Assembly (NCBI GenBank): GCA_002009475.1
Contig: AYTS01000148.1
Location: forward strand, 1-64,000
Length of the DNA stretch: 64,000 nucleotides
Source of the DNA: Candidatus Brocadia carolinensis
GTDB lineage: Bacteria > Planctomycetota > Brocadiia > Brocadiales > Brocadiaceae
Direction of reading: 5' to 3'
Made by a program: the position numbers and the translations under genes. Shown here one piece after another: positions 51,435 to 56,813 of this stretch (the first letter of the stretch is position 1; each line of letters starts with the position of its first letter). The notes beneath the pieces were generated by a model that was not told where the DNA came from, did not search any database, and saw nothing but the letters and a program-made list of their open reading frames with translations.

Positions 51435-52453
51435 CTATCCTCTCTCTTTTTCCATCTGTTTGATCGCTACAGGCATACCGATCGTTAAATTTAATTGTGC
51501 CAACTTTGTTTTTACTTCTCTAAGGGTCGTTTTACCAAAATTTTTTATTTCCAGAAGTTGTTCTTCCGTCTTTGCGACAAGATCACCAACATTTGCTATA
51601 CCTGATACTTCAAGACAATTGGAAGCTCTCACTGATAAATCCAACTCTGCGATAGGTATGCCCATCTTTTTTATGAGTTCTTCTTCCGATATCTCAGGAA
51701 CGGATTCAATGCCCATTCTTTTCTCAACTTGTTGCAACTCTCTGCCTATCTCAAAGTACTGAACGAACGGGTTTAAATGTTTTTTCATAATTTTAGCGGC
51801 TTCCACCATAGCCATTTCAGGTGAGACTACGCTATTCGTCCATATTTCCATGATAAGTTTATCATAATTTGTGCGCCTGCCAACTCGGGTTTCTTCGATA
51901 GAATAGCGGACGTTTCTTACGGGAGAAAAAATTGAATCAACCGCAATGAGTCCGAATTCCTGTTCTTCTGGCTCATTTTCCTCAGCTGTTACATACCCGC
52001 GCCCTTTTCTCACTTCCATTTCTACATTAAATTTAACATCTTCAGAGAGCGTGGCTATATGCAAATCCCCGTTAATTATTTCTACACCTGGGTCGGTTAT
52101 AATATCCTTTGCTTTTACCTCACCCTTTTTTTTTTGCCTCTATTTTAATTACTTTAGGCTGATCACTATTTAGTTTTACTACGAGTTTTTTTTATATTCA
52201 GCAGTATATCAATTACATCTTCCACAATACCGGGAATGCTCGTAAATTCATGGCTAATCCCGTCAATCCTGACAGATACAACGGCACTACCTTCCAACGA
52301 CGAAAGCAATATTCTCCGTAAACTGCCACCTATGGAGTGGCCAAAACCACGTTCAAAAGGAGCGGCTATAAACTTACCATAGGTATCGGTCAAAGTCTCT
52401 CTTTCCACATCAACACGGACGGGAAGCTCAAGACCTCTCCACCTTATTCGCAT
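51435..52453 (-). pseudogene. rpoA: RNA polymerase alpha subunit, frame shifted twice
   Basis: The N-terminal part reads [40 protein letters not shown], up to DILLNIKK; the C-terminal part reads HIATLSEDVKFNVEMEVRKG, with the helix-hairpin-helix domain NVGDLVAKTEEQLLEIKNFG. Dropping one base from the T8 run at 52186-52193 and one from T10 at 52126-52135 restores [20 protein letters not shown] and joins all into 338 residues. As rpoA is essential and single copy, these are very probably sequence errors rather than mutations. It starts at 52453. Confidence 0.93.
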
Positions 52454-52611: not shown

Positions 52612-53238
52612 TTATTTAGAACACAGCTCAACAATCAACTGTTCTTGAGCAGAAGCGGAAATATCTTCTCGTGCAGGAAGCTGAGTAACCAGCCCTTCCA
52701 AGGGGTCAATTCTCAGTTGCATCCAAGCTGGAGCATTTCTGCCCTTCATCAATTCAAGATTTGTTTTAACAATATTTTGGGTTATCTCAACACTCTTAGG
52801 TTTTACCACATCACCAATCTTCACAAGGTAAGAAGCAATATCTACTTTTTTGTTATTTACCATAATATGGCCGTGCAAAACCAGCTGTCTGGCACTTTTT
52901 CTCGAAGGAGCGAAAGAAAGAAGACACACAACATTATCAAGTCTTCTTTCCAGCAGCATCAACAGATTTTCTCCCGTATTTCCCTTCTGTCGTTCCGCTT
53001 TTTTAAAATAATTCTGAAACTGCCTCTCTAAAATTCCGTAATAACGTTTGACCTTTTGTTTTTCTCTAAATTGAATGCCATATTTTGATAATTTTCCTCT
53101 TCCCCAAGTAAATTGCCCTGGTGGGTATTTTCTCTTTGTGATTGCACATTTCACCGTACCACAACGTATACCTTTCAGAAATAATTTTTCACCCTCTCGT
53201 CTGCACAATCTACATTGCGGACCTACATATCTTGCCAT
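52612..53238 (-). CDS. rpsD: Ribosomal protein uS4
   Basis: The 208-residue protein begins [20 protein letters not shown] with zinc-type cysteines (CRLC ... CGTVKC), the C+ form of S4. The S4 RNA-binding domain has [20 protein letters not shown] and [21 protein letters not shown]4 nucleates small-subunit assembly. The gap of about 158 bp to rpoA holds no visible gene. Confidence 0.96.
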
Positions 53239-53270: not shown

Positions 53271-53651
53271 TTATACCCTGCGTTTCTTCCTCGGCCGACA
53301 CCCATTATGCGGAAGTGGAGTGACGTCTTCAATTGCCTTCACGCTCAAACCAGCCGCCTGAAGCGCAGTAATAGCAGACTCGCGGCCAGGACCAGGCCCC
53401 TTAACCCTGATTTCAATTTCCTGAACACCATATTTCTGTGCCTTATCAGCGGCATTTGATGCTGCCTTCTGAGCGGCAAAGGGAGTACTTTTCCGCGATC
53501 CCTTAAATCCAACCGTACCAGCACTAGCCCAGCATATGGTCTCGCCGTTAACATCAGAAATTGTCACATACGTATTATTAAATGTTGCTTTAATATTTGC
53601 AATTGCCCGTGTAACGTTTCGTCTTATCTTTTTTTTGATTCCATTTGACAT
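53271..53651 (-). CDS. rpsK: Ribosomal protein uS11
   Basis: The 126-residue protein has [53 protein letters not shown] and the [14 protein letters not shown] end of uS11, which lies in the platform of the 30S subunit. It is preceded by a methyltransferase gene in place of the usual direct rpsM neighbour. Confidence 0.97.
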
Positions 53652-53681
53652 TGTATTTTTGACCTCAAGATGAATAAATCT

Positions 53682-54542
53682 TTAAAATTTTTCAAGATGG
53701 GTATTAATTTCCTGATTCATGTCGTATCCATGAAAATAATCTTTTAAAACAAATTCAGTATGAAACATTTCATTTAACCTGTCATATCCATCCATACTGA
53801 ATTTCTTATTCCCTTTTTTTCTTCGCGCAACGATCATCAAATTTTTTGGAGTACATTTTGGTGGAACTATCTCAACCAGGTTTACAGAGTAACCAGCACC
53901 AATCAAAAACTGCGACCTTAATGCCTCAGTCAAAATATCAGCAAAACGATACCGCAATAGCCCAAATGCCGTTAGTTCAACAAGGGGATGCCCGTTTTTT
54001 AAGCGGCTCCTGATTTGATTTTCGCAACACGGAACTACCATGATATATTTTGCTCCCAGCTTAATACCCTTGGCTATCGTCTCATCCGTAGCAGTGTCAC
54101 ACGCATGTAATGCGATTACTATATCAATTGGTCTGTCAGGAAGAACTTCAATAATTTTGGCATGAACAAATTGCATATTTTCAATGCCAAGAGCATCCTT
54201 AATTTGATTACATCTTTCTATTAAATCGGGATTAAAATCTACTCCATAAAAAAAAGTTTCTATAGAAAACCGTTTTGAAAGGATGTAATTCAAAGCAAAC
54301 GACAGATAAGATTTACCACAGGAACAATCAAGAAATGTCATTTCTCTATCTTGTGGCCATGTTTCAACCACCCGAAGAACCTGTTCGCAAAAGCCTACCA
54401 CCTCATTAAACTTTTTAAAATCACGACCATATTCTGGTCTGTCAACATCGAGTGATAAAGCCTTTAACAATTCCCTGCAGGATTTTAGCTCTTCTGCTAC
54501 ATTTTTTTTAATTCTGTCATAATTCGATACAGAATGAACCAT
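53682..54542 (-). CDS. SAM-dependent methyltransferase inserted between rpsM and rpsK
   Basis: The 286-residue protein has a Rossmann-type methyltransferase core: motif I-like TFLDCSCGKSYLSFALNYIL, acidic FFYGVDFNPDLIERCNQI, and DIVIALHACDTATDETIAKG followed by YIMVVPCCENQI. This wording resembles the Methyltransf_32 group (DUF/TRM13-like), whose members methylate RNA. The ALHACDTAT and VPCCENQ segments are its hallmarks. It is flanked by 28-30 bp gaps in the same orientation, so it is co-transcribed with r-proteins. A target in rRNA or tRNA is inferred from context only. Confidence 0.85.
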   Translation of the reverse strand: MVHSVSNYDRIKKNVAEELKSCRELLKALSLDVDRPEYGRDFKKFNEVVGFCEQVLRVVETWPQDREMTFLDCSCGKSYLSFALNYILSKRFSIETFFYGVDFNPDLIERCNQIKDALGIENMQFVHAKIIEVLPDRPIDIVIALHACDTATDETIAKGIKLGAKYIMVVPCCENQIRSRLKNGHPLVELTAFGLLRYRFADILTEALRSQFLIGAGYSVNLVEIVPPKCTPKNLMIVARRKKGNKKFSMDGYDRLNEMFHTEFVLKDYFHGYDMNQEINTHLEKF

Positions 54543-54569
54543 GCGTTAATTCTAAAAAAAAACCTCCTT

Positions 54570-54953
54570 TTACCCTAGTTCTTTTACACCCTTTTTCCCT
54601 GCCACAGTCTTTTTACGGCCTTTTCTTGTACGAGCATTGGTTTTTGTTCTTTGTCCCCGCACTGGCAAGCCGACTCTATGCCGTATTCCACGGTAACAGT
54701 TGATGCTTTTCAATCGCGCAATATTCTGCATCTCCTGTCTGCGCAATTGACCTTCTACGGTAAAATTCTTTTCAATAAAGGCGTTCAATACGCTTAATTG
54801 GTCTTCATGCAGATTTTTTGCACGGACGTTTTCATCGATATTCAGGTCTTTTAATATCCGCTGCGACAAAGCCTTCCCAATACCATAGGCGTAAGTAAGC
54901 GCAATAACAATCCTTTTTTCTGCGGGAATGTCAATTCCAGCAATTCTCGGCAT
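54570..54953 (-). CDS. rpsM: Ribosomal protein uS13
   Basis: The 127-residue protein begins [20 protein letters not shown] and has [20 protein letters not shown] near the end. uS13 contacts the P-site tRNA and the head of the 30S subunit. It follows rpmJ by about 40 bp. Confidence 0.97.
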
Positions 54954-55140: not shown

Positions 55141-55359
55141 TTAAACTTGTCTATAAATAATTCTGCCTTTATCGAGATCATAAGGTGACATTTCAATCGT
55201 CACCTTATCTCCAGGCAATATTTTGATAAAATGCATTCTCATTTTTCCTGAGACATGCGCCAATACCTTATGACCATTCTGTAGCTCTACCCAGAACATT
55301 GCATTGGGAAGCGCCTCCTTTACCGTCGCTTCTACTCGAATTGGCTCTTCTTTTGGCAT
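55141..55359 (-). CDS. infA: Translation initiation factor IF-1
   Basis: The 72-residue OB-fold protein has [40 protein letters not shown] and [20 protein letters not shown], all IF-1 signatures. It binds the A site of the 30S during initiation. It follows map with a 16-bp gap. Confidence 0.96.
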
Positions 55360-55375
55360 ATACTATAAAACTGTG

Positions 55376-56128
55376 TTAAACCGTTAAAACATCTGCACCA
55401 TCATCGGTCACCACAATGGTGTGTTCAAAATGCGCAGATAATTTCCTGTCTTTTGTAACAACTGTCCATTTGTTATTTAATACTTCAGTATCGTATTTAC
55501 CCATGCAGATCATAGGCTCTATTGCAATAGTCGTCCCCTGCGACAGAATTTCATCTGCATCCAGCAAAGCCTTGCTCACGAAATTTGGCACCTGTGGATC
55601 CTCATGCATGCATCGTCCAATCCCGTGTCCTGTGTAATTTCTTACAACTGAATAGTCATTCTTCTCAACATACTCCTGAATTGTTCTTGAAATCAGGGAA
55701 AGCTTTTCATTGGCCCTTATAACTTTGATTGCCAAACGGAGTGAGTTTTCGCAAACATCGATAAGCTTTTTCGCTTCACTGGAAATTTGTCCTATTGGTA
55801 TCGTCACTGCGGCATCTGCCACATACTTCCGATAGCCTACTCCTACATCTATGCTAAGGATATCACCATTCTTTAGTCGTCTCGACCCCGGTATCCCGTG
55901 AACAACCTCTTCGTTTATCGAAGTGCAGATACTTTTAGGAAATCCCCTGTATCCTTTAAATATTGGAACGCCACCTTTACCTACAATATATTTTTCCAGC
56001 TCGGTATTAAGGTAGTCAGTTGTTACATCCTCTTTTGCAATTTCCTTAGCAAGTCCTAGCGCTTCTGCTGTGATCTTTCCCGCCATTCTCATCAATTCAA
56101 TTTCACGGACAGACTTGCGTACGATCAA
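55376..56128 (-). CDS. map: Methionine aminopeptidase, type I
   Basis: The 250-residue enzyme removes the N-terminal Met from new proteins. Metal ligands are visible: Asp in LSIDVGVGY, Asp in VADAAVTI, His in GHGIGRCMHEDP, and Glu in IAIEPMI and FEHTIVVTD. It starts at TTG 56128, whose TTGA overlaps the adk stop when adk is read in its corrected frame. The adk-map-infA order is typical. Confidence 0.95.
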   Translation of the reverse strand: MIVRKSVREIELMRMAGKITAEALGLAKEIAKEDVTTDYLNTELEKYIVGKGGVPIFKGYRGFPKSICTSINEEVVHGIPGSRRLKNGDILSIDVGVGYRKYVADAAVTIPIGQISSEAKKLIDVCENSLRLAIKVIRANEKLSLISRTIQEYVEKNDYSVVRNYTGHGIGRCMHEDPQVPNFVSKALLDADEILSQGTTIAIEPMICMGKYDTEVLNNKWTVVTKDRKLSAHFEHTIVVTDDGADVLTV

Positions 56129-56813
56129 CTAACTACTCCGAGATTAGTGCATGGCATATTTTGTGATGCACCACTAATGGCATTTAAGATGTTTATAGTT
56201 ATAGCTTCGATATTCGTTTCTGACTCAATCTCTTTTAAGATTTTATTTTTTTTTATAATAGGCTATTAGATCTTCAGTTTGTTGATGATAAACTCTTATT
56301 CTCTCCTGCACCGTTTCCATTTTATCATCCGCACGTTGGTATAATTTTCCGCCACATTTATCGCAAATACCATCAACGGCAGAGGGAACGAACTTAACAT
56401 GATAATTAGCACCGCAAGTACTACAGATTCTTCTACCAGACAACCTGAGGATAACACTTTCTTTGGAAACAACGAAATAAAATACCAGATCCAGTTTATT
56501 CCCTACCTTTTTCAGCATCTCATCCAGGACCTTTGCCTGAGAAAGAGTTCTTGGAAAACCATCCAGAATAAATCCGTTTTTACAATCACTTTTTAAAATG
56601 CGGTCTTGAATGATATCAACGACAATTTGATCTGGTACCAACTGCCCTTTATCAATGTACTGCCGCGCATGTATACCAGTAGCAGTACCACTTTCTACTG
56701 CATCTCTGAGCAGGTTTCCCGAAGAAATATGCGGTAGTTTTTTTTTCTTTGCTAATGGTCTCAGCCTGCGTGCCTTTCCCAGCCCCAGGTGGCCCGAGAA
56801 AAACAATCCTCAT
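56125..56813 (-). pseudogene. adk: Adenylate kinase, frame shifted twice
   Basis: From ATG 56813 the sequence reads MRIVFLGPPGAGKGTQAETI, the normal P-loop start. One T too many in the T9 run at 56738-56746 shifts the frame before KLPHISSGNLLRDAVESGTA. A second at 56246-56254 hides the true C-terminus; the corrected frame reads on to a stop at 56125-56127. The corrected enzyme is about 228 residues with the lid cysteines CSTCGANYH and CDKCGGKLY (zinc-binding type). Adk balances ATP, ADP and AMP and is essential, so both shifts are probably errors. Confidence 0.92.

Follow-up and report, generated by a model that had tools for sequence, protein, structure and literature searches.

Few gene orders in bacteria are as conserved as that of the core ribosomal operon, and a literature search returned no report of a methyltransferase in the S13/S11 operon. 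Known proteins to compare with the enzyme described here include TlyA, which combines an S4 domain with a SAM-dependent enzyme, and human METTL25, METTL25B/RRNAD1 and GSTCD, which we take to be members of the Pfam family Methyltransf_32 (PF13679). TlyA is a 2'-O-methylcytidine methyltransferase of 16S and 23S rRNA (PMC12805891). According to a review, little is known of the function of METTL25 (PMC11514484), and the methyltransferase domain of GSTCD is predicted only (PMC6676530); a literature search on PF13679 by name found nothing. Among characterised proteins, profile comparison places TRM13 (PF05206) closest; it is a eukaryotic 2'-O-methyltransferase acting on position 4 of tRNA, and its family has been reported absent from bacteria (PMC12155479).

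The window analysed here is a 64,000-nucleotide stretch of Candidatus Brocadia carolinensis (contig AYTS01000148.1, positions 1 to 64,000). Positions 53682–54542 of the minus strand, on which all window genes given with coordinates below also lie, hold a methyltransferase gene (MT) encoding a class I SAM-dependent protein of 286 amino acids with a Methyltransf_32 domain. Its complete reading frame opens with ATG and runs for 286 codons without an internal stop. Upstream lies rpsM (ribosomal protein S13, 54570–54953, Pfam PF00416) and downstream rpsK (S11, 53271–53651, PF00411). The intact frame and the Pfam-confirmed neighbours bear out the preliminary description, which had placed a complete SAM-dependent methyltransferase with ALHACDTAT and VPCCENQ motifs between these two genes on the same strand. 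It had given the spacers as 28–30 bp; this is correct for the one between MT and rpsK (30 bp, 53652–53681), while that between rpsM and MT measures 27 bp (54543–54569). The cluster continues upstream with rpmJ (L36, 54993–55106, read by eye from the sequence), infA (IF-1, 55141–55359) and map (methionine aminopeptidase, 55376–56128), and downstream with rpsD (S4, 52612–53238, assigned from sequence and gene order), rpoA (51435–52453, apparently frameshifted in the assembly) and rplQ (L17, 50870–51430); for infA, map, rpsD and rplQ, relatives agree in gene order. Close to two A-runs (about 52126–52135 and 52186–52193), the rpoA sequence breaks up into three reading frames; it forms a single open frame in the relatives L103 and L089, and the split probably reflects assembly or sequencing errors. 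Likewise, adk (56243–56813) is broken into two frames, probably by another sequencing error.

Within the 27-bp spacer, an AGGAGG precedes the start of MT by about 20 nt. Neither flanking spacer contains a terminator-like site (on the coding strand for the 27-bp one); the scan gave 5 such sites versus 2.5 in shuffles, and promoter-like sites were no more frequent than in shuffles. An Rfam scan of 44–64 kb for leader or regulatory RNAs, such as the S4 alpha-operon site, gave no match at gathering scores. Codon usage of MT is like that of the r-protein genes (0.736 versus 0.65–0.74), which lends slight support to the 16S rRNA reading given below. Against that reading, the operon position is a sign of co-expression and not of substrate; map, adk and secY sit in the same gene cluster.

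The protein matches Methyltransf_32 over residues 43–179 (121.7 bits, E 3e-35, cut-off 27), as do 40 of 40 aligned family members. It carries DCSCGKSYLSF as motif I, followed by ALHACDTATD, VPCCENQ and TPKNLMIVA, and in alignments the motifs G-K-S-Y-L, H-A-C-D-x-A-T-D and P-C-C are invariant or nearly so. The MT form is short (about 280 amino acids), whereas standalone homologues of about 390–430 amino acids have an N-terminal extension of roughly 120–150 residues that the operon form lacks; most members of the wider family are 380–430 amino acids long and carry such an extension. MT represents an operon-locked short subfamily of a known domain family. Its predicted isoelectric point is neutral in the window (7.0), which speaks against the 16S rRNA reading, though the median for the operon copies tested is 8.7. 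The AlphaFold model is confident (mean pLDDT 88.8, pTM 0.89), and its alternating helices and strands agree with a class I fold. RumA and KsgA, both rRNA methyltransferases, were the two top Foldseek matches in the PDB, a point in favour of the RNA reading below, but the PDB matches are generic: query TM-scores reach about 0.5 at most, and enzymes that methylate DNA or small molecules are also among the hits. A PDB sequence search returned generic methyltransferases only, and the NCBIfam search gave no curated equivalog. Elsewhere in the window genome, a second, marginal Methyltransf_32 match was seen (G000:C76:32040-32294, 28.1 bits versus the cut-off of 27).

Homologues of MT were found in 32 of the 33 genomes of the window genome's family. 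The sole exception, G032, also lacks rpsM, so that the locus is probably missing from this assembly. Of the 75 genomes of the GTDB class, 73 carry a homologue, including all 43 with completeness of at least 90% and contamination of at most 5%. Operon context was checked in 61 genomes from seven families (f1, f2, f3, f4, f5, f101 and f103); the contig ends inside the operon in two, and the remaining 59, with both neighbours on the contig, all have rpsM, MT and rpsK in this order on one strand. About ten further genomes with a homologue (e.g. G403–G405, G408 and G412–G415) lay outside this position check. Median gaps across the operon copies are 42 and 36 bp. In family f2, the three genes overlap or sit about 1–7 bp apart, which would point to translational coupling and makes co-translation likely there. 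Within the class, S13 adjoins S11 with nothing between them in families f6 and f102, and all homologues inspected outside the class are located outside the r-protein operon. A chance insertion, raised in the preliminary description as the outcome that would speak against it, is contradicted by the common order and strand in the seven families, and the class-wide conservation rules out both chance insertion and gene-prediction artefact. The description had proposed a check of conservation in other anammox and planctomycete genomes: the insertion was found in the anammox families and in relatives of their class, and it is not general in planctomycetes. As a minor observation, the homologue in L007 (G004) shifts frame at an A-run near the C-terminus (2200–2260), either through an error or through a change of the tail.

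The comparison with relatives that the preliminary description had proposed points to an ancient insertion that was passed on vertically, within the order and also outside it. In a protein tree, all operon copies group together in a single clade (SH-aLRT 99) whose branches track families, and in a tree of S4, S11, S13, IF1 and MAP one change explains the presence and absence of MT; both are quick maximum-likelihood trees, unrooted and without bootstrap. This pattern fits one insertion followed by vertical descent, and MT would have stood between the S13 and S11 genes since before the common ancestor of the anammox bacteria and their closest relatives. Family f6 holds only the longer standalone form, and four f5 genomes (G302, G421, G423 and G428) hold both forms.

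A scan of GTDB genomes yielded at least 591 confirmed relatives of MT in many phyla; 80 of these included Bacillota, Bacteroidota, Chloroflexota, Verrucomicrobiota, Pseudomonadota, Planctomycetota and others. No characterised bacterial member of this wider family was found. In the Clostridia order of G429, an RsuA-like gene and the methyltransferase are linked in 15 of 31 genomes: four (G429, G637, G640 and G641) carry both as a fusion in a single open frame, and in 11 more the genes lie 140–400 bp apart. The fusion in L126 (4903–6708) spans 601 amino acids with the Pfam domains S4, PseudoU_synth_2 and Methyltransf_32, and upstream of the Clostridia fusion gene lies a gene for a 16S rRNA methyltransferase of the RsmB/F type. 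The best NCBIfam model for the synthase part is the 16S rRNA pseudouridine(516) synthase RsuA, although these RsuA-like proteins score below the equivalog cut-off (149–183 versus 275 bits). Apparently, such S4/RsuA-like-methyltransferase fusions are uncharacterised so far. They are comparable to TlyA, which methylates 16S rRNA, but TlyA belongs to the FtsJ family, unlike the Methyltransf_32 domain of MT. A second linkage was seen in the planctomycete family f42, where the methyltransferase gene lies directly downstream of rpsT (S20; L055 4655–5831 and L195 3078–4398). In most other lineages, Lachnospiraceae, Paenibacillus and Bacteroidota homologues among them, no ribosome-related neighbour was seen.

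Fusion or adjacency with an RsuA-like synthase in Clostridia implies a shared pathway. However, no such synthase stands beside the Brocadiales MT, and the linked methyltransferases are a different subgroup. In the tree, the relatives linked to RsuA and those linked to rpsT fall into separate subgroups within a deep family, and their target may therefore differ from that of MT. The links of these relatives are to 30S genes and may carry over to the Brocadiales enzyme. The S13/S11 operon, the RsuA fusion and the S20 neighbour are three linkages to ribosome genes, and together with the TRM13 similarity they favour a target that belongs to the translation machinery. The preliminary description had proposed an rRNA, tRNA or r-protein target; the general idea stands, and no one of the three is singled out. 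Indirect evidence suggests that MT methylates rRNA, or else some other RNA or a protein that serves translation.

Our preferred reading, to which we assign a probability of roughly 0.45, is that MT may be an RNA methyltransferase of 30S assembly, from the Methyltransf_32/TRM13-like superfamily, most likely acting on 16S rRNA. Given the RsuA fusions and r-protein linkages, 16S rRNA is a specific target that can be tested for the family. The enzyme would hold SAM through DCSCGKSY and methylate RNA, with an active site probably shaped by the conserved HACD and PCC motifs. Its target nucleotide would lie in 16S rRNA, rather than in tRNA or protein, and would be modified during small-subunit assembly; the product may be a 2'-O-methyl group, as with TRM13. 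Synthesis together with S13, S11 and S4 could match the supply of enzyme to 30S assembly. More tentatively, we propose a new 16S rRNA methylation of 30S assembly by a widespread, uncharacterised TRM13/METTL25-like bacterial family, whose gene became fixed in the alpha operon of the Brocadiales lineage in a short form made together with S13, S11 and S4. That a non-ribosomal enzyme is fixed in a core operon throughout the order, and outside it too, suggests a standing requirement in ribosome production, and MT offers a way into a large methyltransferase family (at least 591 loci) for which no assigned function was found.

Alternatively, MT could be a tRNA methyltransferase with TRM13-like chemistry, placed in the r-protein operon so that its expression is balanced with that of the translation machinery. 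S13 contacts the P-site tRNA, no characterised family is closer by profile than TRM13, and the two best Foldseek matches among viral models are annotated as TRM13-like. PF05206 is matched by 21 of the 40 family members at E<=0.01, and the homologue L117 scores above its cut-off (33.0 versus 26), whereas the window MT stays below it (11.5 versus 26). The TRM13 matches, in sequence and among the viral models, also count for the preferred reading of MT as an RNA methyltransferase, and the low score of the window protein counts against that reading. Against a tRNA target, no zinc-finger region of TRM13 (CCCH/CHHC) was detected by Pfam in the 286-residue window protein, and both the fusion or adjacency with an RsuA-like rRNA pseudouridine synthase and the S20 neighbour point to rRNA. 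We consider a tRNA substrate unlikely.

Somewhat more doubtful is methylation of a ribosomal protein encoded by an adjoining gene, such as S11 or S13, for which PrmA (acting on L11) and PrmB (acting on L3) would be the models. MT shares its operon with both candidate substrates, and the N-terminus of E. coli S11 is methylated by an enzyme that, to our knowledge, has not been assigned. However, the PrmA and PrmB models returned no similarity to MT, and the PrmC model for glutamine methyltransferases of the HemK/PrmC type scores it at only 14.6 bits versus a cut-off of 199. The NPPY motif of that type is absent, and LHACDTATD follows strand 4 instead. RNA rather than protein is also favoured by the similarity to TRM13 and by the fusion with an RsuA-like synthase. 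Least probable is an action on DNA or a small molecule, with the operon seat a historical accident kept since leaving would disturb r-protein expression: weak similarity to PADLOC mad2 of the MADS defence system (41.9 bits; 36 of 40 family members match) and to the DNA methylase M.BseCI speaks for it, but MADS is a multi-gene defence locus whereas MT sits in a conserved r-protein operon whose inspected surroundings contain no defence genes, a PHROGs search gave no match, and both the near-universal retention (43/43 good class genomes) and the independent ribosome links of other lineages argue against it.

The insertion is independent of anammox: families f1–f4 have hydrazine synthase alpha, while none of the nine f5 genomes showed it, and f5 nevertheless carries MT. 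An anammox-specific gene is ruled out by the same genomes. Separately, in G419 and G420, which lie outside the anammox order, the HZS_alpha domain is matched 11 and 16 times, respectively, in large ORFs that represent expanded paralogues.
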